A stretch of DNA of 64,000 nucleotides from Verrucomicrobiia bacterium (GCA_019634625.1 JAHCBA010000019.1:1-64000), one strand, 5' to 3'. Positions 41,057 to 58,256 are shown, numbered from the stretch's first letter. Notes: generated from the letters alone by a model not told the origin. Numbers and translations are program-made.

Positions 41057-41884
41057 TCAGCCGAACCGCCCGGTGACGTAGGCCTCCGTCTGCCGATGAC
41101 GCGGGTTGGAGAAGATCTGCCGCGTCTCGCCGAACTCGACCAGTCGCCCGAGGTAGAAGAAGGCGGTGCGGTCCGAGATCCGCGCCGCCTGCTGCATGTT
41201 GTGCGTCACCGCCAGGATCGTGTAGTCCCGCTTCAGGTTCAGGATGAGCTCCTCGATCCGCGCCGTGGCCAGTGGATCCAACGCCGAACAGGGCTCGTCC
41301 ATCAGCAGGATCTCCGGCTCGTTGGCGATGGCCCGTGCAATGCACAACCGCTGCTGCTGCCCGCCGGACAACTCCAGCGCGCTGGCGTGCAGACGGTCCT
41401 TGACCTCGTCCCACAACGCCGCCGCCCGCAGGCTCCGCTCGGCCACCGCATCCAGTTCCCCGCGGTCCCGTACCCCGGCCACCCGCAGGCTGTACACGAC
41501 GTTCTCGTAGATGCTCTTCGGGAAGGGGTTCGACTTCTGGAACACCATCCCGATCCGCCGTCGCAGGGCGATCACCTCGGTCCGCGGATGATACACGCTC
41601 TCGCCCCGGATCCGGATGTCGCCCCGGTGTCGCACGCCTTCGATCAGATCGTTCATCCGGTTCAGGCTTCGCAGCAGCGTGGTCTTGCCGCAGCCCGACG
41701 GCCCGATGAACGCGGTCACCTGCCGGTCCACAACCTGCAGGTCGATCCCGTGCAGAACCTGAACCGCCCCATAGAAGAAGTCGTAACTCTCGATCTCGAT
41801 GCACGGCACATCCTCCAGTCCGTGCCGGTTCAGCGCCCCGGAGCCCGGATTCTCCGGCGGGTTCGGTGGGACGGTCTCGCTCAC
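41057..41884 (-). CDS. pstB: Phosphate ABC transporter ATP-binding protein
   Basis: 275 residues, start GTG 41884. Walker [21 protein letters not shown], signature [18 protein letters not shown], Walker [17 protein letters not shown], and H-loop [14 protein letters not shown] with the PstB-specific [12 protein letters not shown] ending. It powers high-affinity phosphate import with PstS, PstC and PstA, which precede it on the same strand (20 bp after the pstA stop). Confidence 0.96.
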
Positions 41885-41903
41885 GATGGACGGTCTTTCC
41901 GGT

Positions 41904-43583
41904 TCAAAACGCGCTGCCGCGATACCTTCGCGTCAGCCGCCCGCGAATGACAATGGCGGTGAAGTTCAAAACCACCACCACCAGGATGAGCAGCAGGGTG
42001 GTGGCGAACACCATGGGCCGCGCCGCCTCCGAATCGGGCGACTGAAACCCCAGATCGTAAATGTGGAACCCGAGATGCATGAACTTCTGATCCAGATGCA
42101 CGAAGGGAAAACGCCCGCTCAACGGCAGATCGGGCGCCAGCTTCACAACGCCCACAAGCATCAGCGGCGCCACCTCCCCCGCCCCGCGCGCCATCGCCAG
42201 GATCAGCCCGGTCAGAATTCCGGGCGTCGCCGCCGGCAGCACGATCCGCTGGAGGGTCTGCCACTTCGATGCCCCGCACGCCAGCGAACCCTCCCGCGCC
42301 CCCCTCGGCACCGCCGCCAGCGCCTCTTCCGTCGCCACAATCACCACCGGCACGGTCAACAAGGCCAGCGTCAGCGACGCCCAAAGGATCCCCCCCGTCC
42401 CGAAGGTGGGTGTCGGCAGCCGGTCCGAAAACAGAAGCTGGTCGATCGTGCCGCCGGCCAGGTACACGAAGAACCCCAGTCCAAAGACTCCGAACACCAC
42501 CGAGGGCACCCCGGCCAGGTTGTTCACCGCGATCCGCACCCAGCCCACCAACGGCCCCCGCGAGGCGTACTCCCCCAGGTAAAGGGCCGCCACCACGCCA
42601 AACGGCATCACCGCCACGCTCATCAGCAGCGTCATGATGAACGTGCCGAAGATCGCCGGAAAGATCCCCCCGCCGGTGTTTGCTTCCCGCGGTTCCTCGC
42701 TGAGAAACTCCCAGGCCCGATGCAGAAACCGCGTCACACGCCCTCCGAAGTCGAGCCGGTTCGGAGCGTAGTACCCCCGCAACTGCCCCAGCTCGAGGGT
42801 CTGCTCTGATCCCGTCAGCAGCCGGTACACCAGCCGGTTCTGCCCGACCCGGTCCCGCAACTCCCGCGCCTCCGCCGCCAGCCGTTCGTACGCGTCCTCC
42901 AGGTCGCTCTGACGCTCCCGCCACCTGCGCACCTCCGCATTCTCCACGGCATCCCCCCCGTGCCGCAGCGACCACGCCGCCAGCCGACGCCGCAGCCGTT
43001 CCATCTCCCCGCTGACCGCCCCGATCTCGTCCTTTTCCAAACGCCGGATCCGTCGCCGATCCCGTTCCACCGCCTCGAGTCGGTTCTCGAGAACCTCCCA
43101 GAAGTTCGCGGCGCCAGCAGGCACGGTCTCGCCTCCGGCGCCCTCCAACCGCACCGGATACCCGAATACGGGCCCATGCGCCTGCCGTTCCCATCGCCAC
43201 ACATCGAGGGGGTGCTCCATCCGCACCACCCGGGCGCCATCCACAAAACGAAACGCCAGCCCGTACACCTCCCGGCTGCCCGTGAACACGTGCCACTCCT
43301 CCCCCGCCCCGCCCCGCCCCGTCTGCCCCGGACCCACCCTCGCCTGGCGCCGGACGATCTCCCCTCCCAGTTGCTCCATTCCCGCCGCCTCCACCGCCTC
43401 CCCGTCTTCCATCAGCGTGATCGTCACCACCCGGCGGGGCCAAAACGCCAGAACCCCCTGCACCCCCACCAGCCCCAGCAACAGCAGAATCATCGCCACC
43501 CCGGCCATCAGTCCCATGGCTGACACCCACACCCAAACTTCACCCACCGGGCTTCCCGACCTGCGTTCCACCGAGGTCTTCAT
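41904..43583 (-). CDS. pstA: Phosphate ABC transporter permease PstA with long periplasmic insert
   Basis: 559 residues, about twice the usual PstA (about 290). ATG 43583 overlaps the pstC stop (ATGA). A first transmembrane helix ([21 protein letters not shown]) is followed by about 240 residues of soluble, partly coiled-coil sequence ([48 protein letters not shown]), then the MetI-type permease core from about 300: [34 protein letters not shown], the ATPase-contact loop [20 protein letters not shown], and [16 protein letters not shown]. The enlarged form resembles PstA of some Proteobacteria; the role of the insert is unknown. Confidence 0.93.
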
Positions 43584-45841
43584 ACCAGTCGGTACCGCTC
43601 CCGCAGCCGCTGCCGCAGCAACTCCGCCACGGTGTTCATCAGGAAGGTCATCAGGAACAGGACCATCGCCCCCAGAAACAGGGTCCGGTACAGGGTTCCC
43701 CCATGCGGCGCCTCCGGCAGTTCCACCGCCAGGTTCGCCGAAAGCGCCCGCATTCCCGAAAACGGGTTCCACTCCAGGATCGGCGTGTTCCCCGTCGCCA
43801 TCACCACAATCATCGTTTCCCCCACCGCCCGGCCCAGCCCGATCATCAGCGCCGCAAAAATCCCCGCCGACGCCGTCGGCACCACGATCCTCATCGCCGT
43901 CTGCCATCGACTCGCTCCCAGCGCCAGGGAACCGCTCCACAACGTCGCCGGAACGCTCGAAAGCGCATCCTCCGCAATCGAGAAGACGATCGGAATCACG
44001 GCGAATCCCATGGCGAACCCAACCACCATCGCATTGCGCTGCTCGAACGCCGCCCCCACCGCCTCCGGCCACCAAAGCCGGAAATCGGCCAAAGCCTCGC
44101 CCGTGACCGGATCGCTCACCACAAACCACCATCGCTCGATCACCGGTCCCAAGGCCGAGCACCCCCACGCCACCCCGGCGAGTAGCGGCGCCAATACCGC
44201 AATCTCACGCCCCGAACACAGCCGCGCCCGGTATCGGGCTGGCAGGCTCTCCAGTCCCTTTCCCATCGCCACGGCCACCGCCGGAATCCCCACCAGCATC
44301 AACAGCACCGAAGGCACCCGCGTCTCCAGCAAGGGCGCGAGCCAGAATGCCGCCAGGAACCCCAGCACGACCGACGGCAGGGCGGCCATGATCTCCATCA
44401 CCGGTTTGATCGTCTGCCGCAGTCCCGGCGGCGCAAATTGCGAGGTGTACAATGCCGCCAGCAACGCGATCGGTGTCGCGAACAGCATCGCGTACAGCGT
44501 CCCCTTCGCCGTCCCCATCAACAGCGGCACCAACGACAGCTTGGGCTCGTACTCGTCCGATCCCCCCGTGGACTGCCAGACATGCCCGGACCCATCCGCC
44601 CCCTCGTACCACAACCTTCCAAACATCCCCCTCCAGCCCGCCTCCGGATGCGGATCCCTCAGCGCGTGGAGATGCAGACGATGTTCGGCATCCAGGAAGA
44701 CCAGCCGGTCATACCGCCCACCCACCCGCGCCAGCACCGGCTCGAACGGCAGCGTCGCCTCCCAACGCACCGCTTCCGTCGTGCCGTACCGAAGACTCGC
44801 CCGGTCCCCATGCCCCACCAGGAACGCCTTGTTCCGCGGGCTCGACACAACATATGCGGCGCGCCCCGCCAGCGCCGGAAAGGTCTTCGTCCAGCCGAAC
44901 TCCCGCTGCTGACGCTCGGGCTCCACGTACAAGCTGAACAACCGGTTCTCCCCGTTCCTCCCGGTCACGATCAGCGTGGCATCCCCGAACAGGAATTCCA
45001 TCGATCCAATTCCCGGGTCGGCCAGATCGCCAAAAGGCCGGAACGTCTGCCGCAACCCGAATCCCCCGCCTTCCCGCAGAAGATAGAAGACTTCGCCCTC
45101 ATCGTTCGACACCACCATCCCCTCTCCCTGCCCATCGACGAGCACCCGATCCAGCCGTCCTCGCGTCCTCGCGGAAAGGTCATGCTCCTCCTGAATCTCC
45201 ATCGTCACCTCGCCAAACAGGGTCCGCTCCTGCACCACGCTGACCGCATGCAGCTCGGTGCGACCCTCCACCTCCTTAATCGCCGCCATGAGCCTGGATT
45301 CGCCCCCGTCCCCGTACCCCAACGCCCGCACCGCAGATCCCGCCGGCCCCACCCGTCCCCATGGAGTCGCCCGCGCTGTCAGCCGCGCCTCGCGCCGTTC
45401 CCCGACCCACACCGGTTCATTGGAAAAGGTCACGACGGACCACCGCCCGTCCTCCGTGCCCACCGCCAGTTCCTGCCGCGCCGCCCGGAAATGGAGGGCC
45501 GTGATCTCTCCGCCGTCCCCCCATCCCGGATCCACTGCCTCCACGCCGCCCCCCCCGGCGAAATCCACCGACCAGATCCGACCTGTACCCTCGACCAGAA
45601 ACGGCCGCTCGCCGTTGTCGTCCAAGCCCAGCACCCGGTAGTCCCCTGGGGGCACGGAAACCGAACCCAGCGCCTCCACCCGGGCCCCGCCGAACAAAGG
45701 CAACGCCTGCCACAGGATGAACAGAAAGATCCCCAGCACGACGGTGATCACCGCCATCCCGCCCACCGGAATGAACCGGTTCATGAACCCGTCCATCCAC
45801 AAGACCGACCTCGACGCCGTCCATCGCCTCCCGGTCTTCAT
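43580..45841 (-). CDS. pstC: Phosphate ABC transporter permease PstC with propeller-like periplasmic insert
   Basis: 753 residues against about 320 for E. coli PstC. ATG 45841 overlaps the pstS stop (ATGA). One transmembrane helix near 25-50 (VGGMAVITVVLGIFLFILWQ) is followed by about 390 residues of beta-rich sequence with WD40-like repeats (GEITALHFRAARQELAVGTED, SMEFLFGDATLIVTGRNGE) and then the permease core from about 450: GTLYAMLFATPIALLAALY, IMAALPSVVLGFLAAFWLAP, contact loop GSLALGASRWQTAMRIVVPT, and GLGRAVGETMIVVMATG. The coupling loops agree with PstC, so transport is retained; the insert may bind PstS or the cell wall. Confidence 0.93.
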   Translation of the reverse strand: MKTGRRWTASRSVLWMDGFMNRFIPVGGMAVITVVLGIFLFILWQALPLFGGARVEALGSVSVPPGDYRVLGLDDNGERPFLVEGTGRIWSVDFAGGGGVEAVDPGWGDGGEITALHFRAARQELAVGTEDGRWSVVTFSNEPVWVGERREARLTARATPWGRVGPAGSAVRALGYGDGGESRLMAAIKEVEGRTELHAVSVVQERTLFGEVTMEIQEEHDLSARTRGRLDRVLVDGQGEGMVVSNDEGEVFYLLREGGGFGLRQTFRPFGDLADPGIGSMEFLFGDATLIVTGRNGENRLFSLYVEPERQQREFGWTKTFPALAGRAAYVVSSPRNKAFLVGHGDRASLRYGTTEAVRWEATLPFEPVLARVGGRYDRLVFLDAEHRLHLHALRDPHPEAGWRGMFGRLWYEGADGSGHVWQSTGGSDEYEPKLSLVPLLMGTAKGTLYAMLFATPIALLAALYTSQFAPPGLRQTIKPVMEIMAALPSVVLGFLAAFWLAPLLETRVPSVLLMLVGIPAVAVAMGKGLESLPARYRARLCSGREIAVLAPLLAGVAWGCSALGPVIERWWFVVSDPVTGEALADFRLWWPEAVGAAFEQRNAMVVGFAMGFAVIPIVFSIAEDALSSVPATLWSGSLALGASRWQTAMRIVVPTASAGIFAALMIGLGRAVGETMIVVMATGNTPILEWNPFSGMRALSANLAVELPEAPHGGTLYRTLFLGAMVLFLMTFLMNTVAELLRQRLRERYRLV

Positions 45842-46899
45842 GGCGTCAGCTTCCCCAGTTCCCCGGCCGCCACCGACGCCGGCAACGGATAGTACCCCTC
45901 CTTCACCACCGCCTCCTGCCCCTGCCGTGACTGCATGAATCGGATGAACTCCGCCGTCAGCGTGTCCATTGGCTGACCGGGACGCCGGTTGACATGCACA
46001 TGGAGAAACCGCGCCAGGGGGTACCGCCCGGAAAGACAGTTCTCCACCGTGGCCTCGTACGCCGTTGAATCCCGGCCCGACAACGCCACCGCCCGCACCC
46101 CGGACGTCCGGTAGCCGATCCCCGCATACCCGATCCCGGCCAGATCGTTGGCGATCCCCTGCACCACCGCCGAGGACCCCGGTTGCTCCTTGACCGACGC
46201 CCGGAAATCCCCGCCGCGAAGGGCCGCGTCCTTGAAGAATCCGTACGTGCCGGACGCGCTGTTCCGCCCATACAGGGACAGTCGAAGCCGCGCCCATCCG
46301 CCGCCCAGCCCCAAGTCCCCCCAACGTTCGATTGCGCCCCCGCCTGCCTTGCGCGTGCTCGAAAAGATGCTGTCCAACTGCTGCCGGCTCAACGATCCGA
46401 TCGGATTATCCCGGTGCACAAACACCGCCAGCGCATCGATCGCCACCCGGATCTCCGTCGGCCGGTAGCCGTGCCTTCGCTCGAACGCCTCCACCTCCGT
46501 CCCCTTCATCGCCCGGCTCATCGGCCCCACCTGCGCCGTCCCCTCGATCAAGGCCGGCGGCGCCGTCGAGGACCCCTTCCCCTCGATCTGGATCTTCACA
46601 TTCGGATACACCGCCTGAAACCCCTCCGCCCACAACGCCATCAGGTTGTTCAACGTGTCCGACCCGATCGACGTCAACGTCCCCGACACCCCCGCCACCC
46701 GTTCATAGTCCGGCAACGCGGGATCCAACCTCGCAGGCGGCTGGGCCTTCAGCCCCATCGTCGCCATCACAGCCACCACGACCACCCCCATCCACCCGCC
46801 CCGAACCCGGTCACGTCGAAATCCCCGCGTCCTGATCCGGACACGTTTCCTCCTCCGGTCCCAGTCCTCTCCTCGCGTCGTCATGATCCAAACCGCCAC
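45838..46899 (-). CDS. pstS: Phosphate-binding periplasmic protein
   Basis: 353 residues; ATG 46884 (MTTRGEDWD) is an equally good start. A basic N-terminus and hydrophobic helix (WMGVVVVAVMATMGL) act as an export signal, with no lipobox cysteine. The binding protein motifs are present: TLTSIGSDTLNNLMALWAEG, EGKGSSTAPPALIEGTAQVG, and RNSASGTYGFFKDAAL near the phosphate site. It delivers phosphate to PstCA. First gene of the operon; its stop overlaps the pstC start. No convincing Pho box was found in 46900-47030. Confidence 0.94.
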   Translation of the reverse strand: MAVWIMTTRGEDWDRRRKRVRIRTRGFRRDRVRGGWMGVVVVAVMATMGLKAQPPARLDPALPDYERVAGVSGTLTSIGSDTLNNLMALWAEGFQAVYPNVKIQIEGKGSSTAPPALIEGTAQVGPMSRAMKGTEVEAFERRHGYRPTEIRVAIDALAVFVHRDNPIGSLSRQQLDSIFSSTRKAGGGAIERWGDLGLGGGWARLRLSLYGRNSASGTYGFFKDAALRGGDFRASVKEQPGSSAVVQGIANDLAGIGYAGIGYRTSGVRAVALSGRDSTAYEATVENCLSGRYPLARFLHVHVNRRPGQPMDTLTAEFIRFMQSRQGQEAVVKEGYYPLPASVAAGELGKLTP

Positions 46900-47030
46900 C
46901 CGTCAGCACGCCCGCCGCACGTCACAGCCCCGCGACCGTTCCGTGACGTTCAGGTGAACCACCCCCCCCAACCAAGACCGAATGCGTACCGCCCGTTCCC
47001 CGATCGTCGGTGCCCCTCTGAGTTTACAAT

Positions 47031-47319
47031 GGCCGGCATAATATAATTGACCGGACCTCCCCAACGAGACGAGTGGCTCCTGTTATTGTTGACTCCTATT
47101 TTATACGGCCAGGCATTGTATTGTATTGTTGACGACCAGCGACACGAAATCATCCACCGCGCCTGGTCGGGATTCGTGGGATGGAGGGTGCCGGGTTGCA
47201 GGGGTTGCAGTGAAATCGCGGCGTCAATAACAGTGAGCCTGACTTTCTATTTAATTCGAGTCAACAATATTATTCCTGACTTTATTTTGCCTGGTTGCAT
47301 CAATAACAGTGAGCCTGAC
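47031..47319. repeat. Inverted array of six 21-bp GTCAGGC/TTGAC elements
   Basis: Three forward copies (47031-47051, 47073-47093, 47108-47133, the last with a TATTG duplication) and three reverse copies (47223-47243, 47260-47280, 47299-47319) face each other across an 89-bp centre. TTGAC ends are spaced 42, 40, then 37 and 39 bp. The array is strikingly AT-rich compared with the surrounding genes. The centre contains a C-rich phrase on the minus strand (47169-47195) similar to ones in the 16.4-kb array and upstream of the RAYT gene. Confidence 0.8.
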
Positions 47320-47343
47320 CTTCTATTTTATTTACTCTGGGAC

Positions 47344-47440
47344 TCGGATCTCGGGGCGTTCGGACAGATCCCGCATTTGCCGATCCGGCACATGACCGCC
47401 TGGGTGTTCCTTGGGGCGAAGGGGGTTTGGGGTTTGTGCA
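47344..47440 (+). pseudogene. Remnant of a RAYT transposase C-terminus
   Basis: Translation on the plus strand gives GQIPHLPIRHMTAWVFLGAK, which aligns with GQILRLRIRHMTDGVFLGSK of the intact RAYT (about residues 264-283). Only this C-terminal piece is recognisable; the HUH domain is absent. It lies 25 bp after the 21-bp repeat array, between it and the giant ATPase stop codon. Confidence 0.75.
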
Positions 47441-47540
47441 GCGGATCTGGAGCCGGTGTCCCCCCGTGTCCCCCCCCAGTTCGTTCTCCCAGCTTCAGCT
47501 GGCCACTGCCGCGCCCAAACTCCCTGCTCCATTCCCCCAA

Positions 47541-50500
47541 TCACTCCCCGCGCGGCACCTGGATGGTGTGCTCGCCGGGTTCGCCAGGCTCGTCCCCGGA
47601 AGCACCGGAAGGAGGTCCGGACGTCGGCTGGCTTTCGATCAACTCCCAAATCCGTCGCAGGGTCTCCTGGCTGATCCGCACTTCGCGGATGCCATCGGAC
47701 ACCCGGGCCCCGGGCGCCGCCTCGGCACCAGGGATCGGAACCTCCGCGGGTGCCGTCGCGCCTGCCGGAGCGGGCACCAACGGCAGCGACCCCGGTGCCA
47801 CAATGAAGGTCATGTTGGGCGCCACGGACACGAAAGGAGGAGGGGGTGGGGGCGGTGGGGGAGGCGGGTCCGCCGGGCGAAGCGCCTCAGGCAGCCGGGC
47901 CAGTCCGTCCCGCACCGCGTCCCGCATCCCCTCGATCCCGTCCTGAAACCCCGCCAACTGCCGCACCACCCGGCTCACCGGGTCGCCGTCCGCATCGGAC
48001 CCGAACCGCAATTGCCGCCGGAAGGTCTCACCAATGGCGCGCCACCGCTCCGCCTCCGCGGCGGTCAGCGCTCCGGTCAGTTCCCGCAGCTTGAGCAGAT
48101 TCGCCTCCGCGTCCCGGGTGAGGGTCTGCGACTCGTTGCGGTAATGCTCCTGCAGGAGGGCTTCGACCTCGGCCTCGGTCATCACCGCGGCCACCCGTTC
48201 GGCCAGGCGGTTCATGTTCCGGTACGACCCCTGCAACCGGAACGCGGGCTCGGTGCGGTACATGTCCTGCATCGCCGCCGAACGGATGTACTCCTCGTTC
48301 ACCCGCAAGACCACGTCCCGAATCCGGAAGAGGCGGCGCGCCACGGCAATCGCGTCGTTCAACTCGTCCGGCGAATGGTCCGCCTCGAAGTCCACCCCGT
48401 CACGGGTCGCGCCCGAGGCCAGCGCCAGCACTGCCAGCACGTCCCGGCGGCTCCGGGCGGCGATCCGTCCGAGCGCCGGGTTCGATGTGGCCGCGTTCTC
48501 GAGGTAACTGTCGTGGAACGCCGCCGCGTGCGCCCCCACGATGTCGCCCAGATTGTAGGTGTCGGCCCGGTTGGCCAGCATGTCCGGAATCTCGAACCGG
48601 TCCCCGCTCTCGGTATAGGGATTGCCGGCCATCACCACCACGACCTTCCGCCCGCGCAGATCGTAGGTGCGGGCCCGCCCCCGGAAGACGCCCTCGATCT
48701 TGCGCTGGGCATCGCAGAGCGAGATGAACTTCTGCAGGAACTCGGGACTGAGATGCTGGATGTCGTCGAGATAGAGCATCACGTTGTCGCCCATCTCCAG
48801 CGCAAGGTTCAGCTTCTCGAGTTCCTCGCGGGCGGCCGAGCCCGAGGCCTCGGCAGGGTCGAGCGTGACCACCCGGTGCCCGATGGCCGGCCCGTTGATC
48901 TTCATGAAGACCAGCCCGAGCCGGTTGGCCAGATACTCGATGAGCGTCGTCTTCCCGTACCCGGGCGGCGACACCACCAGCAGCAGCCCGCTCCGGTCGG
49001 TGCGCTTGGCGTCGCCGGCCACGCCGATCTGCTTGGCCAGGTTGTCCCCGATGAGCGGCAGGTACACCGAGTCGATCAGCCGGTTCCGCACGAACGAACC
49101 CATCACCCGCGGCCGGAACGATTCCAGCCGGAGCGCCTCCCGTTCCCGCTCGATCCAGGCCCTCTTCCGCGCCTGCAACCGACGGAACCGCGGCACCGCC
49201 TCCCCGGTGTGCTCCGTCAGGCGCCGCGTGAAATCCAGATAATCAAAGGTCGCCCGCCCTTCCGGCACGGTCGCATGCATCCCCGCCATCGGACCCAGCT
49301 CGCGCCGCAGGGTCACCTGCACCACCCCCGTCGCCACCGGGGTGTCCCGCAGCAGCAGCGCCGCCACCTCATCCACATGACCGCCCGATCCCGGCGCGCT
49401 TTCCCGCGCATGAGCCGCCACCCAGTCCCGGAACGCCCGGTACCGCGCCCCCAAATCCTCCGCCAGTTCCTGTCGTGCCCGGTCGAGACCGGAGCGGTAC
49501 CCATGCAACTGCAGGTGCTGGCCGAACGACCGGAACAGCGCATCCGCCTCCCCGCTGACCACGAAAGGGCCCTCTTCCTGCAACTGCCGGAACAGGTACC
49601 CCGCCGCCTCCCGCGCCAGGGTCACCGGAAACAATCCGGTGTCCTCGCAGAACCGCGCCATCCCCCCCGCCAGCTCCCCGGCGTATCCCTCCTCCGCGTC
49701 GCGATCCGCCGCGAAGGCCCGGCGCAGTCCCGCCATCGAACGCGCCCGCGCCGCCCAGCGCCGCCCTGCCTCACTGTCCCGTTCCCCCTCCCACCACACC
49801 GCCGCCAGCGCCCGTGACGCCGGACTGTACCGCAGCAGGCCCGCCTGCGAATGCACCTCCACCAGGGCTTCGAGATACCGGGCCGCGTCCGGATCGTGCA
49901 CGCCCTTCACATATCCCTCGTCGTGCCGCGGCGCCATGAACTGCTGGACCGCCTCGATCCGCTGCGCCTCGTTCCATCCCAGCGCCTCGTCAAGGCGCCC
50001 GCCTGATTCCAGTTCCCGAAACAGTCCCCAGGCCAGGTACTCCGCCCGGTACACTTGCGGCGTCTCCGACACCAGTTCCTGGTCCCAGACGTCGCGCAGC
50101 GCCTGGATTTCCGGATCGTCCACGGCCGCGAAATATCCCGTCCCCGTGAGGTGCGCGAACATCCCCTCCCCCCGCCGCACCAGCGTGAGATCCAGCTCCT
50201 GCGTGTTCACCAGGAACCGGTGCCGCCCGAGTTGCATCGCCTCCGCCCCTCCCGCGAACAGCTCCTGCCGGTCCCGAAGCTGCCGCACCGCCTCTTCCCG
50301 CAATGCCTTCAACCGCCCGTCGATCTCCTCCGCCTTCGCGGTGTCCCGCAACCCCAGCAACTGCTCCACCAGTTCCCGCACCCGGTGCGTCATCGGGTCC
50401 GAGGCAAAGTACCCGTGGATCTCGGACACCGTCGCGAACTGCCGGACCCGGTGCTCGACGGCCCGGAGAATGCGCCCGGCCGCCTCCTGCAACGCGGCGG

Positions 50501-52793
50501 CCCGCCGGTTCCGGCCCTCGACCAGCTCGATCTTCCGGGTCTCAAAGGCGTTGCTCAACGCCGTCCGCTGCTCGGTCAGTTCGAGCACGAACTCGTCCGA
50601 ATCCGCGAACCGCGCCTCCAGCTCCTCCACCTGCACCAGCAGCCGGTTCAGGTGCTCGTCGCATCGCTCCGGCGTGTCGCTCAGGTCCAGCGACTGCGCC
50701 ATCGCCTGCTGCAGCAGCCGCTTCTGCGCCGAGAATTCCGCCGCCTCCTCCGCCCCCCGCAACGCGCGCATCCGCTGCCGCAAGGCCGCCCGCACGCGGT
50801 TCAATCCGGCATACAGCCCCGAGATCCGATCGACGATCGCCGTCGCCTGGGTCGCATCGTCGATCTTCAACTGTCCCATCACCTCGAGCAGCGTCTCCAA
50901 CCCTCCGGCGATCCCCTGCACCTCGGCCTCGGTCTCCTTCGCCTCGCGCACCCGCCCGAGCTGCTCCACCGCCCCCGACAACGCCTCGATGCGTTCGGCA
51001 TAGGGTCGCAACGCCTCCTCCCCGAGCAGGAACCCCACGGTCTCCCGCGCCAGTTCCTCCGCCCGCGTGGTGACCCGTTCCTCGAGGGCCGCCAACTGCC
51101 CGGTGTCGGCGTAGCGCAGTTCCCGGGCGGCAATCAAATCCCCGCGCAGCCCGCGCAGCCCGGCAAGCCCCTCGACAAAGTATTCGATCCGCGCCGCCGC
51201 CGTGGTGGCCAACCGCTCGAACAACGCGCCGGACTCCCGTTCCAGCCGCGCAACTTCCGCCGCAGTCGCGCGCCGGATCCGGACGACCTTCTCGAACTCG
51301 GCCAGCGCCGCCGAGGCCGTCTCCCGGATCTCCCCGACCACCGACCGCAGATCGAAGGTGTCCTCCCGCCCCAGCCAGAAGTAGGCGTCCGCCATGTCGC
51401 CCGACCGCTTCACCAGGTCGAGATACAGATCGGCGTAGGTGTCCCGGCGCCCGATCAGCGTCAACAGCTCCTGCCCCTCCGCCAGCGCCCTCACCAGTTC
51501 CGGGTTCCCGATCCGCTGGAGGAACGAGTCGCCCCGCACCGGCGGCTGCCAGTCCGACGCCGCGTAGGGCGTCTGCCAGATCTGCACGACGTGATGCTTC
51601 TGCGGCGCGGGGTCGGCGCGCAGAATGGCCATCTCCCCGTTCTCGAAGGTCGAGAACCCCTGGCAGACGGTCGGCGACTCGATGCGCTGGGCGATCGCGT
51701 TGTACGACATCAGCAGGTACCGCCCGCTCTCCCGCTGATGGAACACGTACAGGTGATCCTCCCCGTTGGGCGCCGCAATCCGCCGGTCGAAATGCATGTC
51801 GCTCAACCCGGTCTCGAACCCCTTGGACTCGCCGCTCTGCAGGTAGTACCCGCCCGGGAACACGATCCCCTGATCGTCCGGCAACAGCACGCAGGCATCC
51901 CCCAAGGCATCGATACGCCGCACCTCCTGCATCCTCCGGTTGAACACGAAATGACGCCACGCCCGCTCCTGGTACGGACGCACCTTGAGCAGCAGCAGGC
52001 TCCCCACCCGCGCATAGTGGAACTCCGCGTCGTCCAGGGTCTGGTCCGCGTTCTCCACGGGCTCCGAGTAGATCCCCTCGCCCGAGGCCGTGTTGTCCTC
52101 GACCTTGATGGTGAGATCGCCGCCCACGCACTCGACGAACAGCGTGTCCTCGATCGCGATGTGCGGATGCAGCCCCGCCCGGTGCAGTTCCCGATGCGTC
52201 CGGCGCCACTCGAATTCGTGCTGCGGCGGGTACCGGTACTCGTGGTCGGACCGGTTCCCCAGATACTCGAGCCGGCCGTCCGCGCACACCCACTTGAAGG
52301 TCTTGATGTCCGACAGGCTCTTCCCGACCCGGAACACCATGAACAGGTGCGGCCCGACCCGGGAGAACCGCTTGAACACCGATTCCTTGTAGTACTTGTA
52401 GAGGTCCCGGAACTGCCCCTCGAACTCCCCGACCCGGAGCGTGTCCAGCGGCAACTCGTGGAACTGCCGGTCCCGCAGCTCGTACAATCCGAACACATCC
52501 TCGAGCTGGATCTCCGTCCGCAGCCCGAATTGCACGTTGTACCCGAACAGGAACCGCCGGTTCCCGATGGGAAACATGTCCCGCGGCACACAGTTGTTCC
52601 GCGTGGTCAGCCGTTCGGTCGCCAGCAGCGTGGTCGGGATCGACCCGAACACCTCCTGCCGCGCGGCGTTCAATCCCTCCAGCCGACGGCGCAGCTCCGC
52701 CCCCTGCCCCTCCAGCCGCTGACGCAGGATCTCATACGTCCCCCGCTCGAGAACGTCCTGCCCGTCACTCCCAGCCGTTTGCTCGGTCGCCAT
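47541..52793 (-). CDS. Giant coiled-coil AAA+ ATPase (DNA-repair-ATPase/DUF3686 type)
   Basis: 1750 residues. The N-terminal about 440 residues contain repeated beta-strand motifs (NRRFLFGYNVQFGLRTEIQL, GPHLFMVFRVGKSL, MHFDRRIAAPNGEDHLYVF), matching the DUF3686 region of proteins annotated as ATPases involved in DNA repair. Residues about 500-900 are mostly helical coiled coil. An AAA+ domain lies at about 1260-1480: Walker A VVSPPGYGKTTLIEYL, Walker B VMLYLDDIQHLS, sensor VVVMAGNPYTESG. A proline tract (eleven Pro, about residue 1640) precedes a C-terminal tail. DNA repair in the name is only an annotation; the neighbouring PspA, AAA+, OB-fold and flotillin genes point to membrane-associated work. 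Last gene of the operon. Confidence 0.87.
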   Translation of the reverse strand: MATEQTAGSDGQDVLERGTYEILRQRLEGQGAELRRRLEGLNAARQEVFGSIPTTLLATERLTTRNNCVPRDMFPIGNRRFLFGYNVQFGLRTEIQLEDVFGLYELRDRQFHELPLDTLRVGEFEGQFRDLYKYYKESVFKRFSRVGPHLFMVFRVGKSLSDIKTFKWVCADGRLEYLGNRSDHEYRYPPQHEFEWRRTHRELHRAGLHPHIAIEDTLFVECVGGDLTIKVEDNTASGEGIYSEPVENADQTLDDAEFHYARVGSLLLLKVRPYQERAWRHFVFNRRMQEVRRIDALGDACVLLPDDQGIVFPGGYYLQSGESKGFETGLSDMHFDRRIAAPNGEDHLYVFHQRESGRYLLMSYNAIAQRIESPTVCQGFSTFENGEMAILRADPAPQKHHVVQIWQTPYAASDWQPPVRGDSFLQRIGNPELVRALAEGQELLTLIGRRDTYADLYLDLVKRSGDMADAYFWLGREDTFDLRSVVGEIRETASAALAEFEKVVRIRRATAAEVARLERESGALFERLATTAAARIEYFVEGLAGLRGLRGDLIAARELRYADTGQLAALEERVTTRAEELARETVGFLLGEEALRPYAERIEALSGAVEQLGRVREAKETEAEVQGIAGGLETLLEVMGQLKIDDATQATAIVDRISGLYAGLNRVRAALRQRMRALRGAEEAAEFSAQKRLLQQAMAQSLDLSDTPERCDEHLNRLLVQVEELEARFADSDEFVLELTEQRTALSNAFETRKIELVEGRNRRAAALQEAAGRILRAVEHRVRQFATVSEIHGYFASDPMTHRVRELVEQLLGLRDTAKAEEIDGRLKALREEAVRQLRDRQELFAGGAEAMQLGRHRFLVNTQELDLTLVRRGEGMFAHLTGTGYFAAVDDPEIQALRDVWDQELVSETPQVYRAEYLAWGLFRELESGGRLDEALGWNEAQRIEAVQQFMAPRHDEGYVKGVHDPDAARYLEALVEVHSQAGLLRYSPASRALAAVWWEGERDSEAGRRWAARARSMAGLRRAFAADRDAEEGYAGELAGGMARFCEDTGLFPVTLAREAAGYLFRQLQEEGPFVVSGEADALFRSFGQHLQLHGYRSGLDRARQELAEDLGARYRAFRDWVAAHARESAPGSGGHVDEVAALLLRDTPVATGVVQVTLRRELGPMAGMHATVPEGRATFDYLDFTRRLTEHTGEAVPRFRRLQARKRAWIEREREALRLESFRPRVMGSFVRNRLIDSVYLPLIGDNLAKQIGVAGDAKRTDRSGLLLVVSPPGYGKTTLIEYLANRLGLVFMKINGPAIGHRVVTLDPAEASGSAAREELEKLNLALEMGDNVMLYLDDIQHLSPEFLQKFISLCDAQRKIEGVFRGRARTYDLRGRKVVVVMAGNPYTESGDRFEIPDMLANRADTYNLGDIVGAHAAAFHDSYLENAATSNPALGRIAARSRRDVLAVLALASGATRDGVDFEADHSPDELNDAIAVARRLFRIRDVVLRVNEEYIRSAAMQDMYRTEPAFRLQGSYRNMNRLAERVAAVMTEAEVEALLQEHYRNESQTLTRDAEANLLKLRELTGALTAAEAERWRAIGETFRRQLRFGSDADGDPVSRVVRQLAGFQDGIEGMRDAVRDGLARLPEALRPADPPPPPPPPPPPFVSVAPNMTFIVAPGSLPLVPAPAGATAPAEVPIPGAEAAPGARVSDGIREVRISQETLRRIWELIESQPTSGPPSGASGDEPGEPGEHTIQVPRGE

Positions 52794-52885
52794 CGCGCCT
52801 CAGCCCTCACACGTCCGGACCGCGACGACACCCCCGGGTGCGATCCCGGTCCGGCCGATCGCGGTCTTCTCCTCTCGCACCGCGC

Positions 52886-55015
52886 TCATGCCGGCTTGCC
52901 GGAGGTTGCACCGCCGGACGCCACCGGCCCGGAAGTGGCGGCGGCCGTCAGCGCCTCCCGCCAGTCGGTCGCCGGAAGTTCGGCGGTCCCCGCCCGTTCG
53001 ACCCGCGCCAGCAGCCGGGTCAGCAAGCCGCGCACGGACGCATCCTCGGCCCCGGCGATCAGCCGTCCGAGCAGCGCCGCCACGCTCAGGTTCTTCAGGT
53101 CCTCGGTCCGGATCCCGAACCGGTCGATGAATCCCTGCACCTGCGTCCGGAAATACTCCGGGTCGCCGTTGAAGAAGGTCTCCTTCACGTCGGCCAGGGT
53201 GCGGCTGTGATCGACCCAGCGGTCGATGGCCTTGCCCCCGGTGATGGCGCTGGTCAACCGGTCGAAGAACTGCGTCTCGCCCCCGACAATGTCCACGCGG
53301 GCATGCTTCAACGCCTCCCCCAGCACCGCGGCCTGGCTGTCGGCGATGGCCTTCCGGGCCTCGATGCCCGCCAGTTCCAGATCCCGCTGCTGGTTCAACC
53401 GCAGCTTGAACTCCTCGTGCTCGCGACCGACGCCGTCGAACTCCTTCATCGCCTCGGCCTTCCGCGTGATGCCTTCGGCCTCGGCCCCGAACTTCAACTG
53501 CATGACTTCGGCCTCGGCCGATCCCTGCTTGCGCGTCGCCTCCGCCCGCGCCTCGATGACCTGCACCTCGGCCAGTCCGACGGCCGCCGTCTCCGCACTG
53601 AGGGCCGCCGCCAGTTCCTTCCGGGCCGCCGCCTGTTTCAAGGCCGCCGCCTCCTCCGCCTCCGCCGCGATCAGCAACTCCTGGGCCCGGCGTTCCGCCG
53701 CCTCCCGCGCCGCGTCGGCCCCGCGCACCGTGACGAAGCGTTCCTGTTCCGCCCGCAGCTCGGCCGCCTTCCGCGCCGCCTCGGCCGCCTTGATGTCGCG
53801 CACCAGCGCCTCCTCGGCCAGTTGCTCGGCCGCCGTGATCGCCACCTTCTTGTCCCGGTCGGCCGTGGCGAACGCCTCGGCATCCTTGATCCGCTGCTGC
53901 TCGAGCACCACGGTCTTCTCGACCTCCAACCGCTCCCGGATGGTGTTCTGGATCGCCTTCTTCTGCGCCTCGACGACCTTCTCCTTCTCGATCTGCGCCA
54001 GGGTCACCACCCGTTCCCGCTCCGTCTGCTCGATCAGCCGGTCCTTCTCGACCCGTTCCCGCTCGACCGCGTCCGTCCGCTCCCGGTTCCGTTGCGCGAC
54101 GATGACCTGCCGGTTCTTGTTCTCCTCGGCGACCTGCACCTCCTCGTCGGTGGCGATGCGGGCCTGTTCCGACCGCAGCCGCTGTTCCTCCTGCACCTTG
54201 CGCGCCTCGGCCTCCTCGCGGGCCTTGATCGAGGCGATCTCGCGCTTCTGCTTTTCCTCCGCCTCGGCCAGTTGCCGGTTCAATTCGAGAATCGCCTCCT
54301 GCGCCTCGACGTTCTGCTTGGTGATGGTCTTCTCCCGGTCCCGGTCGATGTGGTTCGACAGCACCTTCTGCGCCGCCGTCAGTTCGGTGATCTTCTTGAT
54401 GCCCTCGGAATCGAGGATGTTGTCCGGGTTCAACAGCGCGATCGGCGTCTGTTCGAGGAAGTCGATCGCCACGTCCTCGAGCACAAACCCGTTCAGGTCG
54501 GTGCCGATGACGCTGATGATCCCCTCCTTCAGCTTCTCCCGAGAATTGTACAGGTCCACGAAGTTGAACTGCCGCCCCACGGTCTTCAGGGCCTCGGAGA
54601 ACTTCGCGTCGAACAGCTCGACCATCGACTGCTCGCTCGAGGCCCGTACGCATCCGATCGACTGCGCCACCTTCAGCACATCCGAGGGCGTCTGGTTCAC
54701 CCGCACGAAGAACGCCACCTTGATGTCCGCCCGCATGTTGTCCATGCAGATGAGGCCGTTCTTCCCCTGCCGGTCGATCTCCACCCGCTTCACCGAGATG
54801 TCCATGGTCTCCGCCCGGTGCAGGACCGGGAAGACCACGATCCCGGAGAACGACACCTTGGTCCCCCCGAAGCCGTTTCGCACCAGGGCCTTTCCCTGCT
54901 CGACCTTGCGGTAGCACCGCAGCACCAGCGCGGCGATGCCGGCCAGCACGATCAGCACCACCACGCCGCCCAGGGCCATCAGGCCTTCCATGAATCCCGC
55001 CGCCAACGTGTTCAT
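52886..55015 (-). CDS. YqiK-like flotillin (SPFH/band 7 protein)
   Basis: 709 residues. N-terminal transmembrane helix (ALGGVVVLIVLAGIAALVLR) followed by an SPFH domain (EQGKALVRNGFGGTKVSFSG, VFPVLHRAETMDISVKRVEI, DLNGFVLEDVAIDF). Residues about 240-560 are a long coiled coil rich in Glu/Ala/Arg. A C-terminal oligomerisation region contains DVKETFFNGDPEYFRTQVQGF. Flotillins form large membrane scaffolds; the YqiK type is encoded with a YqiJ OB-fold membrane protein, as here (85 bp between genes). In this operon it also sits with PspA and two AAA+ proteins. Confidence 0.93.
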   Translation of the reverse strand: MNTLAAGFMEGLMALGGVVVLIVLAGIAALVLRCYRKVEQGKALVRNGFGGTKVSFSGIVVFPVLHRAETMDISVKRVEIDRQGKNGLICMDNMRADIKVAFFVRVNQTPSDVLKVAQSIGCVRASSEQSMVELFDAKFSEALKTVGRQFNFVDLYNSREKLKEGIISVIGTDLNGFVLEDVAIDFLEQTPIALLNPDNILDSEGIKKITELTAAQKVLSNHIDRDREKTITKQNVEAQEAILELNRQLAEAEEKQKREIASIKAREEAEARKVQEEQRLRSEQARIATDEEVQVAEENKNRQVIVAQRNRERTDAVERERVEKDRLIEQTERERVVTLAQIEKEKVVEAQKKAIQNTIRERLEVEKTVVLEQQRIKDAEAFATADRDKKVAITAAEQLAEEALVRDIKAAEAARKAAELRAEQERFVTVRGADAAREAAERRAQELLIAAEAEEAAALKQAAARKELAAALSAETAAVGLAEVQVIEARAEATRKQGSAEAEVMQLKFGAEAEGITRKAEAMKEFDGVGREHEEFKLRLNQQRDLELAGIEARKAIADSQAAVLGEALKHARVDIVGGETQFFDRLTSAITGGKAIDRWVDHSRTLADVKETFFNGDPEYFRTQVQGFIDRFGIRTEDLKNLSVAALLGRLIAGAEDASVRGLLTRLLARVERAGTAELPATDWREALTAAATSGPVASGGATSGKPA

Positions 55016-55100
55016 TGCGTTCGTCTCTCCAATTCCGCCGGTTCCCGTCCCCGGGCCACTCGCCCGGCAACGATTCCCGGCCTTGTCCTCGCTCCCCCGT

Positions 55101-55721
55101 TCACAGCGTCTCCGAACTCACCCGCCGCACGTAGTACACCCCGCGCCCGGCGTCCTTGCTCACAATCAAGGCCGTGTCCCCGCGCGCCAGCCGCTCCCCC
55201 TCCAGCGGTCGCACGTTCAACACCACCGGCGACCCCTTCCGGGTCACCTGCGCCTGCCCCAGCGCCTCGGTCACCGTGCTGGTCGTGATCTCACAGGTCT
55301 GCCCGATCAGCGGCACATGCTCGTCGCCCTCCGCGCTGAGCTTCCGGAAGAACGCCGCCACCGGCCGCGACGCCACCCAGGTCAGCCCCAGGCTCAATGC
55401 CAGGTTCGGCACCAGCAGAACCAGCGCCCGTGCCAGGGAGTTTCCAGCCCAGTAATGCGTCCCGATCATCGAGAACATCCACAGGAACAGCGCCAGCAGA
55501 CTGACCACCACCATCACCGGCACCCGCCCCAGGTTGAGAAACTGGGTGATCCCCGACAGCCATCCCCCGCCCACATCGCCATTCACCTCCATCGAGCCCT
55601 CCCCTCCCTCCATGTCCAGCACCCCGACCGCCACCATCAGCCAGTACCCCACCACCCCGGCCAGCAGCACGGTGAACGGCAGGTTCGGCAGCGCGATCGC
55701 TTCTCGCAGGACTTCCATCAT
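55101..55721 (-). CDS. YqiJ-like membrane protein with OB-fold
   Basis: 206 residues. Helices at about 12-35 (LPFTVLLAGVVGYWLMVAVG), 65-90 (VPVMVVVSLLALFLWMFSMIG) and 95-120, then a cytoplasmic OB-fold/NfeD-like domain (GQTCEITTSTVTEALGQAQV, VVLNVRPLEGERLARGDTAL). This is the partner type found with YqiK flotillins, probably anchoring or capping the flotillin assembly. ATG 55721 overlaps the AAA+ gene stop (ATGA), so its translation is coupled to the gene before it. Confidence 0.88.
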   Translation of the reverse strand: MMEVLREAIALPNLPFTVLLAGVVGYWLMVAVGVLDMEGGEGSMEVNGDVGGGWLSGITQFLNLGRVPVMVVVSLLALFLWMFSMIGTHYWAGNSLARALVLLVPNLALSLGLTWVASRPVAAFFRKLSAEGDEHVPLIGQTCEITTSTVTEALGQAQVTRKGSPVVLNVRPLEGERLARGDTALIVSKDAGRGVYYVRRVSSETL

Positions 55722-57436
55722 GGGTCACCTCGACTTCCCGCCATCGCCCCGCCGCCCCCCCCGCGACCGCCTTCATGAAACCCACGAAACGCCTCGGGCA
55801 CCAACGACAAATCCGTGGCTTCCCCCACCGCCAGCCGCACCTGCCGCTCCAGCACTTCCCTCGGCACCGGCGCCTGGTGGTCCGCCACCGCCTCCCGCAG
55901 CGCTTCGCCCGCCCCCAGCTTCCGGGTCCGCCCCAGCCGGTATGCCTTTACGGCCAGCGCTTCCGCCGTCCCCGGCGTCAACCATTCCGGCACCACCGCC
56001 TCGATCTCCCGCCCGGTCGCCTCGTCCACCTCCAGCCCGCGCCGTGCCGCCAGCCCCCGCAGCAGCTCCCATCCCTCCGCGCGCGTGGCACAGGGGAACA
56101 GCGGCAGACGGACATCAATGCGACCTGGACGCTTCAAATCCACCTCGATGAGATCGGGCCGGCTGGACGCCAGCACCCAGACCACCCGACCCCGGTTCGC
56201 GGGGTTGCTCATTTCTTTCGCCATCATCGCGTACACGCGCCCGGACACCCCCGAGTCCTGCCCGCTCCCATCCCGCCGCCCCAGCGCCTGGTCCGCCTCG
56301 TCGATGAACACGTAACACCGCCCCAGCGCCGGCAGCAGACGAAAAATCCGCTCCAGGTTGCTCTCCGTGCTTCCCACCCAGCGGTCCCGGAAATTCCGGA
56401 TCTTCACCACCGGCACCCCCGCCTCCCCGGCCAGACATTCCACCAGGAAGGTCTTCCCGGTTCCCACCGGACCGCACAGCAGATACCCCATCGGCAACGC
56501 TTCGAGATCTCCGTCCCGCCACAACGCCAGATCCTGCCGCAGCCAGGCCTTCACCCCGTCCAGCCCCAGCACCGCCCCCAGATCCCGCGTCGGCGCCACG
56601 AACTCGATCAGGTCGCGGCACTCGCGTTCCACATTCGCCTTCCGCACCGCCGCCACCGCCGCCTCGTCAATCGCCTCCCCCCGATGCTCGTGCCGCCGCA
56701 ACAGCCGCTCGACCGCCCGAAAACTCATCCCCCGCAATCCCTCCGCCAGGGCCACCTCCCGCCCCGCAAACACCCGCATCGCCTGCGCATGCCCCGCCGA
56801 CGCCCGACGCAGCACCGACGTCATCTCGTCCACCCCGGGCAGCGGCACGTGCAACACCGCCACCCGCGGATTCCCCCACACCATCGGGTGCAGATCGTGG
56901 AGGTTCTCGCAGACCAGGCACGTCGCCAGCGGCAGCGCCTCGGTCAGTTCCTCCCCCGCCCACTCGCGCAACAGCAGTGCGACCGCCCCGGTCTCCGGGT
57001 GCGACCCCGCCTCCGCCGGGGCCAGCAGGTGAGCCGCCCACACCACCAACCCCACCTGGCGCCGCGCCTGACCCAGACGCGCCAGATTCGCCGCGTACCG
57101 GAAGTAATGGGTCAACCGCTCGACCGCGCCCCGCGCCGACTTCGGCCATTCGGGCGCATCCCGCAATGCCGGCCATTCCTGAAGCAACGCCCCGCCCCGC
57201 TCGACGCGCACCCCGTTCCCGACGTCGTAGCTCAGCACCACCTCGAACCCCGGCATCACGGACTCGATCAGGAACGACCTCAATGGCGCCAGCGGCCGCT
57301 CCGGACGAACCCCCGCCGGCAGCAGATCCTCCACGTTGCCGTGCAGCACGAACTGGCTGGCGGCGTGGCTCTCGTAAAGCGCCGCCATCTCCGCCGCCCA
57401 GGCCGGCCACCCTTTCGCTGTGGTTTGCGCCGACAT
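55718..57436 (-). CDS. AAA+ ATPase, Vps4/Ycf46-like
   Basis: 572 residues from ATG 57436 (GTG 57445 possible). The N-terminal about 270 residues resemble a degenerate P-loop domain as in Ycf46 (SQFVLHGNVEDLLP, VGLVVWAAHLL, ATCLVCENLHDL). The C-terminal classical AAA domain has Walker A CGPVGTGKT (321-329), pore loop RWVGSTESN (352-360, comparable to the WxGESE loop of Vps4), Walker B CYVFIDEAD (374-382), sensor 1 LASSRPD, and arginine-finger segment LKRPGRID (435-441). These features indicate a hexameric unfoldase or disassembly motor. It follows pspA by 49 bp and overlaps the OB-fold gene, so PspA is the obvious candidate substrate. Confidence 0.9.
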   Translation of the reverse strand: MSAQTTAKGWPAWAAEMAALYESHAASQFVLHGNVEDLLPAGVRPERPLAPLRSFLIESVMPGFEVVLSYDVGNGVRVERGGALLQEWPALRDAPEWPKSARGAVERLTHYFRYAANLARLGQARRQVGLVVWAAHLLAPAEAGSHPETGAVALLLREWAGEELTEALPLATCLVCENLHDLHPMVWGNPRVAVLHVPLPGVDEMTSVLRRASAGHAQAMRVFAGREVALAEGLRGMSFRAVERLLRRHEHRGEAIDEAAVAAVRKANVERECRDLIEFVAPTRDLGAVLGLDGVKAWLRQDLALWRDGDLEALPMGYLLCGPVGTGKTFLVECLAGEAGVPVVKIRNFRDRWVGSTESNLERIFRLLPALGRCYVFIDEADQALGRRDGSGQDSGVSGRVYAMMAKEMSNPANRGRVVWVLASSRPDLIEVDLKRPGRIDVRLPLFPCATRAEGWELLRGLAARRGLEVDEATGREIEAVVPEWLTPGTAEALAVKAYRLGRTRKLGAGEALREAVADHQAPVPREVLERQVRLAVGEATDLSLVPEAFRGFHEGGRGGGGGAMAGSRGDP

Positions 57437-57485
57437 CGCGGTCACCCGGCTGCGCCCCCGGTCCTGACCTCATTCACCGCCGTCC

Positions 57486-58256
57486 TCAGGCACGGCCTTC
57501 CGATTGCGGCCCCATGCGCTTTGGCGGCGGCGCATCCGGACCCGGTCCCGGTCCCGGGGCCTGGGCGGCCGGCGCTTCCAGGGCGATCCCCTCCCGCGCC
57601 GCAAAGTCCGCCAGGGCGATCTCCGCCATGGCCTTCTGCTCCCGCTCCCTCGCCTCGAGATCGCCCAGGTCCAGGGAATCCCGCGCCACCCGCGATCGGC
57701 CTGCCGCCTTCTGGCGCTCCTCCTCCACCATCTCATGCAGCCGGTTCAGCGTGTCGCCGGAACCCCCGATGCTGGTGATCATCCCAGAAGCCATTTCGCC
57801 CAACTCGGCCGTCGCCCGCTGAATCTTCAACTCATTGAGACTGCTCTTGAGCGCCTCGATCTTGGCCTTCGCCGCCTGGATCGACGCGTCCCGCGCCGTC
57901 ACCAACTGCCGGTAGGTCGTCTCCGCCTCCGCCAGTTGCGCGCGGTTCTCCGTCAATTCGCGCCCGACCGTCTGGAGCCGCAGGGCGTACTGCCCCGCCG
58001 ATTCACGGTTCCCCGCCCGCAGGTTGGCCGTCGCCTTGGCCCTCAACTCCTCGTCCTCCCGCTCCAGCTTCTTCACCTGCGCCATCAGCCGTTCGCACAT
58101 CCCCGCATGCGCCGCCAGTCCCTGGTTGTAGTTGGCAATCTGCTTCCGGAGATTCTCCTTCTCGACCTCCAGCAGCGCCTCCGGCGCGCTCTTCTCCACC
58201 CCCCCGATAAACAGGGCCACAAAACCCCGGATTACGTTCGTCAATCGCCGAAACAT
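57486..58256 (-). CDS. PspA/IM30 (ESCRT-III-like) family protein
   Basis: 256 residues from ATG 58256. The amphipathic N-terminus (MFRRLTNVIRGFVALFIGG) is followed by a long helical hairpin: NLRKQIANYNQGLAAHAGMC, KKLEREDEELRAKATANLRA, AEAETTYRQLVTARDASIQA, ending in a hinge and a fourth helix (LNRLHEMVEEERQKAAGRSR). This is the PspA/IM30/ESCRT-III layout; members polymerise on damaged or curved membranes. A proline-rich tail (PGPGPGPDAPPPK) is extra. It is the first gene of the five-gene operon, downstream of AT-rich repeat DNA. No pspF, pspB or pspC is seen nearby. Confidence 0.88.
   Translation of the reverse strand: MFRRLTNVIRGFVALFIGGVEKSAPEALLEVEKENLRKQIANYNQGLAAHAGMCERLMAQVKKLEREDEELRAKATANLRAGNRESAGQYALRLQTVGRELTENRAQLAEAETTYRQLVTARDASIQAAKAKIEALKSSLNELKIQRATAELGEMASGMITSIGGSGDTLNRLHEMVEEERQKAAGRSRVARDSLDLGDLEAREREQKAMAEIALADFAAREGIALEAPAAQAPGPGPGPDAPPPKRMGPQSEGRA

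Follow-up and report, generated by a model that had tools for sequence, protein, structure and literature searches.

Does a bacterial PspA polymer have a dedicated ATPase that takes it apart, and are a flotillin and a second, giant ATPase parts of the same device? The question is raised by five adjacent genes in a 64,000-nucleotide stretch from a Verrucomicrobiia bacterium (GCA_019634625.1 JAHCBA010000019.1:1-64000; hereafter the window), which encode a PspA protein, an AAA+ ATPase, a YqiJ-like membrane protein, a YqiK-type flotillin and a giant ATPase. PspA in general polymerises on the stressed inner membrane. Both PspA and Vipp1 belong to the ESCRT-III proteins (Liu et al. 2021, PMC8281802), and according to the same work it is unclear whether PspF fills the role of Vps4, or whether Vipp1 has an equivalent. 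The locus consists of two joined modules, one formed by PspA and a tandem AAA+ ATPase and the other by YqiJ, the flotillin and the giant protein. On balance, we think that it probably encodes a two-module bacterial membrane-remodelling apparatus, whose AAA+ ATPase would be Vps4-like in action but of a Cdc48/Rix7-like class.

A five-gene locus made of two modules

All five genes are intact and co-oriented on the minus strand, from 58256 down to 47541. The features are as follows, D1 and D2 being the first and second AAA domains.

57486-58256, minus strand: PspA/IM30 protein of 256 residues with a long variable tail, ESCRT-III superfamily (PF04012 over cut-off)
57507-57521, minus strand: codons of K-R-M-G-P, the PspA tail motif near the C-terminus, a predicted AAA+ docking tag
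55718-57445 from GTG (575 residues), or 55718-57436 from ATG (572 residues), minus strand: tandem AAA+ ATPase
56450-56473, minus strand: AAA+ D2 Walker A, GPVGTGKT, residues 325-332, nearly all invariant in the homolog alignment
56372-56380, minus strand: AAA+ D2 pore loop W-V-G (W356 and G358 invariant, V357 in at least 90%, 39 homologs)
56291-56302, minus strand: AAA+ D2 Walker B, DEAD (D382, E383, A384 and D385 invariant in the homolog alignment)
55101-55721, minus strand: YqiJ/NfeD2-like membrane protein of 206 residues (YqiJ_N match, and hhalign to E. coli YqiJ)
52886-55015, minus strand: YqiK-type flotillin of 709 residues with a transmembrane (TM) segment, SPFH domain and long coiled coil (hhalign to E. 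coli YqiK)
47541-52793, minus strand: giant DUF3686/DUF7902 AAA+ protein of 1750 residues (PF12458, PF25472, AAA)

With the AAA+ start taken as the ATG at 57436, the intergenic spacing is 49, -4, 85 and 92 bases, the negative value being an ATGA overlap of 4 bases between the YqiJ-like and AAA+ genes. The open reading frames (ORFs) and gaps are those described in an earlier reading of the window made from sequence alone (the sequence-only reading). The gene order is beyond chance: the YqiJ-flotillin-giant order, the PspA-AAA+ order and the full five-gene order all recur elsewhere. The sequence-only reading would have been refuted by the lack of any neighbourhood conserved in other genomes; such a neighbourhood exists, in the form of recurrent PspA-AAA+ pairs, the recurrent triad and a planctomycete locus, L145, described below.

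PspA and the AAA+ ATPase occur together

The first gene product is a PspA/IM30 protein, as the sequence-only reading had named it, with a PF04012 match of 39.8 bits (Pfam cut-off 33.9), and no other PF04012 protein is found in the source genome. Co-occurrence was counted in two samples, 384 genomes from the verrucomicrobial class and 343 from planctomycetes; within the class the AAA+ ATPase was accepted at 641 bits or more, and one genome (G023, 648 bits, included in the search alignment) was set apart as holding a distant relative without PspA. The ATPase is present in 28 of the 384 class genomes, and this PspA subfamily in all 28 (Fisher 1.6e-39), with PspA lacking the ATPase in three further genomes. 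Among the planctomycetes the ATPase occurs in 14 of 343 genomes, again always with PspA (14/14), and 10 giant-bearing genomes without the ATPase also lack such a PspA.

The pairing does not depend on the two genes being neighbours. They are adjacent or nearly so in 11 of the 28 class pairs and apart in 17, and adjacent or nearby in 13 of the 14 planctomycete pairs, so that 18 of the 42 pairs from both phyla are not adjacent. A scan of named genomes placed PspA-AAA+ pairs in Verrucomicrobiota, Planctomycetota, Acidobacteriota, Sumerlaeota and delta-, gamma- and alphaproteobacterial records, and the two genes are neighbours in most named loci from other phyla.

A gene for a TM-bearing, mostly helical protein (cluster c4) lies between or beside PspA and AAA+ in L117 (4986-5699), L090 (4676-5617) and about 19 other loci, and genes for large proteins of solute-binding type (clusters c7 and c8) are found near it. 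Ravi et al. (PMC11237479) describe a "Snf7 with TM" and PBPB/OmpA context, with which these neighbours agree.

The AAA+ ATPase has two AAA domains

The AAA+ protein, which matches PF00004 with 84 bits, had been described as a classical, single-domain AAA+, and this has to be corrected to a tandem AAA protein with a degenerate first domain. Its AlphaFold2 model contains two AAA folds (predicted local distance difference test, pLDDT, 85), a degenerate D1 at about residues 9-285 and a D2 at about residues 286-555 with intact ATP-binding motifs. In the model the N-terminal half folds as an AAA domain (pLDDT about 90), which aligns to D1 of Rix7/Cdc48. Walker A and Walker B are both absent from D1 in 39 of 39 homologs, and both present in D2 in all 39.

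In Foldseek searches the protein aligns near full length to the tandem AAA motors Drg1, Rix7 and Cdc48 (Drg1, E value 7e-16), and its VIA-align superposition on Rix7 gave a Z score of 18.1 for 375 residues over the region 9-440, with a root mean square deviation of 5.7 Å. D2 alone superposes on Vps4 (Z 15.7, 157 residues, 2.7 Å), with FtsH, Msp1 and spastin tied. The CdvC model scores 33.9 bits against the protein (cut-off 650) versus 67 bits for Cdc48, the matches of PDB profiles are headed by VCP-like/Cdc48, and D2 is by sequence closer to Cdc48/FtsH than to CdvC. Models and sequence comparisons identify the protein as a tandem AAA ATPase of the Cdc48/Rix7/Drg1 type, with a D1 predicted to be dead and a D2 predicted to be live.

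The likeness to Vps4 that had been proposed can be kept for function only. The aromatic pore loop (W356 and G358, 39/39 homologs) and the Walker motifs fit it, but the dead AAA domain, the lack of an MIT domain and the Cdc48/FtsH-like scores do not. Identification as a true Vps4 was ruled out, as the N-terminal half is not MIT and the sequence tests favour Cdc48/FtsH. A role in anti-phage defence was also considered and dropped: PADLOC gave weak IetA/mad8 AAA matches alone, and no defence genes were recognised nearby.

A conserved motif in the PspA tail

The C-terminal tail of PspA is variable and disordered-looking, and in the family alignment it holds the motif [K/R/G]-[T/S]-M-G-P, usually 5 to 9 residues before the C-terminus; in the window it reads K-R-M-G-P. 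The motif is conserved in about 80 AAA-partnered PspAs. Methionine is found in 76 of 79 AAA-linked tails, glycine follows it in 60 of these 76, and proline comes after that in 53. The dipeptide M-G occurs in 62 AAA-linked tails, as against a mean of 11.7 and a maximum of 24 in shuffled tails. The strict motif was found within the last 32 residues of 41 of the 2,497 genes called across the loci, and all 41 encode PspA. Remote planctomycete pairs, in which PspA reaches profile scores of 43-178 bits, carry K-E-M-G-P, K-T-I-G-P, K-E-L-G-P, K-S-L-G-R or K-T-I-G-H, a form that can be written K-x-[M/I/L]-G-(P).

The motif is absent from the PspAs of G070 and G086, two genomes without the AAA+ ATPase. 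In a PspA tree calculated without tails these two proteins lie outside the rest, on a branch 1.27 long, so that loss of the motif cannot be told from its never having been there. Likewise, the Hymenobacter PspA encoded beside a CesT/Tir chaperone has neither tail nor motif, and no PspA with the motif adjoins the distant AAA+ relatives of L090-L093. A conserved C-terminal motif that tracks an AAA+ protein is what would be expected of a docking tag, by analogy with the MIT-interacting motif (MIM) of ESCRT-III proteins for Vps4, and the PspA motif is probably such a tag, although it is unlike MIM in sequence.

AAA+ proteins classically recognise short tags at the C-terminus. The near-terminal position of the motif and the disordered look of the tail would also suit a degradation or recycling tag; the AAA+ ATPase would then control the amount of PspA by unfolding it, either for proteolysis or for recycling in the manner of a chaperone. 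We consider this unlikely: no protease gene recurs beside the PspA-AAA+ pair in the neighbourhoods of the loci, the strict and PspA-specific pairing resembles that of a dedicated remodeller, and the AAA+ protein showed no recognisable sequence for docking a protease, though no systematic search for one was made. As binding of the tail to the ATPase is something that we infer, and PspA-only genomes are few, the motif might instead bind the membrane, the flotillin, YqiJ or the giant, with the ATPase acting elsewhere. This seems quite improbable, given that the motif is kept in pair genomes that lack the giant (9/28 in the class) and in loci with separated PspA and AAA+ genes (L098-L104, L128-L134), and that the 10 giant-only genomes mentioned above have no such PspA. 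A docking tag read by the AAA+ ATPase is the interpretation that we follow here.

The motif-less PspAs of G070 (L047:1912-2661) and G086 (L095:7475-8218) belong to the same broad PspA subfamily; the former gene is convergent with the adjoining giant gene, and the latter lies about 3.5 kb from its giant. A remote PspA in L237 (G468) carries the motif twice in its tail (K-E-M-G-P ... K-E-M-G-P), with a diverged AAA+ gene about 4 kb away.

The YqiJ, flotillin and giant ATPase module

Two identifications of the sequence-only reading are upheld by profile comparison. The YqiJ-like protein barely reaches YqiJ_N (23.1 bits, cut-off 23), which 8 of 18 relatives match, and its family aligns to E. coli YqiJ with an hhalign probability of 96.5%. 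The flotillin itself has no Pfam match, neither Band_7 nor Flot, and among 25 relatives a single one matches Band_7. When the flotillin family is compared with E. coli YqiK, the alignment takes in 394 columns comprising the SPFH domain and the coiled coil (hhalign E value 4e-41, 31% identity). The giant protein contains DUF3686 (PF12458, 596 bits), DUF7902 (PF25472) and AAA regions, and its relatives are single-copy and 44-56% identical. Its N-terminus, in which a β-propeller was sought, was modelled with AlphaFold2 from two sequences only (pLDDT 40) and is strand-rich at residues 138-391.

In 40 loci of the giant taken from related genomes, the flotillin gene precedes the giant gene in all except L048, whose contig starts at the giant, the flotillin of L044 having been recognised in one reading of the loci only. 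The YqiJ-like gene precedes the flotillin gene in most of them. The AAA+ gene was not found beside the triad in these 40 loci, and PspA was found there in two related genomes alone, G070 and G086. NCBI names the giant's family "DNA repair ATPase", and on the strength of its Pfam/NCBI names the giant could be taken for a DNA-repair enzyme with no tie to the membrane. That role is very improbable and was dropped as resting on a name: the giant is a near-constant neighbour of flotillin, and often of YqiJ, across phyla, and no DNA-repair gene was recognised beside it in the annotated loci. Its description in the sequence-only reading as a second motor or tether is a guess.

An extra ORF of about 120-150 residues lies between the flotillin and giant genes in several loci of family f52 (L042:10926-11372, L068:10967-11341, L071:10932-11306). 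In L039, L040 and L055-L061 the partner of the giant is a flotillin from a diverged branch, which shares about 42% identity with the flotillin of the window, and no YqiJ was recognised; one of these diverged flotillins (G003) comes from the source genome's own genus.

Are the two modules one machine?

The five genes are found in the same order, with two small ORFs intervening, in the planctomycete locus L145 (JAJFFG010000037.1), which is an independent second joining of the modules, in Planctomycetota. The giant is present in 19 of the 28 pair genomes of the verrucomicrobial class versus 35 of the 356 others, and in 8 of the 14 planctomycete pair genomes versus 34 of the 329 others, which makes it about six times commoner in pair-bearing genomes in two phyla. 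In Hymenobacter this triad is attached to another PspA type, in the order Tir-PspA-YqiJ-flotillin-giant, and CesT/Tir-PspA operons of this kind have been published (PMC11237479). In B. subtilis an SPFH protein places PspA at the membrane (PMC8581546). The two fused loci, the enrichment and the CesT/Tir-PspA operon lend moderate support to the view that the flotillin platform and the giant belong to the same device as PspA. The flotillin-marked patch of the sequence-only reading is retained to this extent, but in most genomes the modules are apart or alone.

The alternative is that the PspA-AAA+ and YqiJ-YqiK-giant modules are independent and that their joining in two genomes is neutral. Among the class genomes read, the five-gene run is present in the source genome only, the other pair genomes having the triad elsewhere or not at all. 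Without this PspA the triad has a wide distribution, which takes in Actinomycetota, Deinococcota and Proteobacteria. The joining in L145, the second PspA type attached to the same triad and the enrichment of the giant all run counter to independence, which we regard as a serious but somewhat doubtful possibility.

A further arrangement linking PspA operon types with the giant is seen on the Pseudomonas megaplasmid pQBR103 (L219/L223), where flotillin and giant genes lie beside a YjfI-PspA-rhomboid-DUF350-DUF1190-glutathionylspermidine synthase cluster.

Proposed mechanism

In the mechanism that we favour, PspA would polymerise on the inner membrane in the manner of ESCRT-III, and a hexamer of the AAA+ ATPase would dock on the K/R-x-M-G-P tag through D1 or the pore entrance. 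The inactive D1 would serve as a platform or docking ring, and the active D2, with its W-V-G pore loop, would pull the PspA tail into the pore, so that PspA subunits are extracted, released or exchanged. Docking on the tag, pulling by D2 and release or exchange of subunits are, in our estimation, likely. That the ATPase acts on PspA, as had been proposed, is indicated by the strict co-occurrence in two phyla, the recurrent adjacency and the tail motif that tracks the ATPase, with Vps4 as a functional label. YqiJ and the YqiK-type flotillin may form the membrane scaffold or site at which PspA is remodelled, and the giant DUF3686 ATPase may be a partner motor acting on or with that scaffold; we would give this part about an even chance. 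The joint action of the two modules might amount to envelope repair.

Several observations weigh against this mechanism. The PspA-only genomes are few (three), and one of their PspAs ends in P-P-K-R-L-Q-P, near the motif. When AAA+ residues were compared between the motif classes (MGP, KEM and EKAM-end), none in D1 and three positions in D2 varied with the class, and no docking site emerged. PspA alone hydrolyses ATP slowly in vitro and forms variable rods without a partner (PMC11746142). A single run of all five genes was found in two genomes only, and in the rest of the class the modules are not linked. Differences in genome size or shared ancestry may account for the giant's enrichment; when family f52 is set aside, the giant is present in 3 of 10 pair genomes (p about 0.05 to 0.07).

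Whether several phyla share a dedicated, ATP-driven disassembly of PspA, in which a Cdc48-like tandem AAA+ reads a K-x-[M/I/L]-G-P tag, sometimes on a flotillin/giant platform, is to our mind evenly poised. If true, the combination of a polymer and a tail-reading AAA+ arose separately from Vps4 and the MIM/MIT code, and the system would be a second solution to ESCRT-III turnover and a bacterial counterpart to ESCRT-III/Vps4. It would also provide a handle on the role of the flotillin/YqiJ/giant-ATPase operons of many phyla. The ATPase that recycles bacterial PspA/Vipp1 was left open by Liu et al. 2021 (PMC8281802), and the AAA+ protein and the tag make the matter directly testable.

Relation to known systems

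The outline of an ATPase-remodelled PspA working with flotillin is not new. Ravi et al. 2024 (PMC11237479) described two contexts. In one, PspA accompanies an AAA+ of two domains, the N-terminal one being inactive; in the other, CesT/Tir-PspA stands with a flotillin, a YqiJ/YuaF protein and an AAA+ that has a coiled coil and a β-propeller. The authors proposed that PspA is remodelled in an ATP-dependent way and coupled to flotillin. The main text of that paper was not found to mention the joining of these contexts, the tail motif or the strict co-occurrence. New here are the strict AAA+/PspA co-occurrence, the PspA tail motif, the second five-gene locus and the enrichment of the giant in pair genomes.

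The published PspA and two-domain AAA+ context agrees with ours in the description of the AAA+, including its inactive N-terminal copy, and in the TM helical and solute-binding proteins that accompany some relatives, but here the pair is joined to the flotillin triad. The CesT/Tir-PspA operons likewise unite PspA, a YqiJ-type protein, a TM-SPFH-flotillin and a giant AAA+; in the window, however, no CesT/Tir gene lies by pspA, the tandem AAA+ gene takes its place, and the PspA, whose tail is tagged, comes from another subfamily. ESCRT-III/Vps4 (CdvB/CdvC) shares the polymer superfamily, the aromatic pore loop of the AAA+ and a short C-terminal motif on the polymer subunit. It differs in that the ATPase of the window has no MIT domain, is a tandem AAA protein with a dead D1 and is nearer to Cdc48/FtsH, and in that the motif is unlike MIM. 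In the PspA-YdjI-YdjG/H system of B. subtilis (PMC8581546) an SPFH protein also works with PspA at the membrane, but that protein is of another SPFH family and no AAA+ is reported there. E. coli YqiJ-YqiK is a homologous pair of NfeD2-like protein and flotillin, and E. coli lacks the giant ATPase.

Neighbouring genes

The five-gene run is bounded by a gap of about 556 bases upstream (PspA start to 58813) and one of about 640 bases downstream (46899 to 47541). The next genes upstream of PspA form an ABC-type gene pair, encoding a 582-residue protein that matches no Pfam family, and an ABC ATPase. The run is followed immediately downstream, at 41057-46899 and in the same orientation, by pst-type phosphate transport genes (PBP, permease and ATPase).

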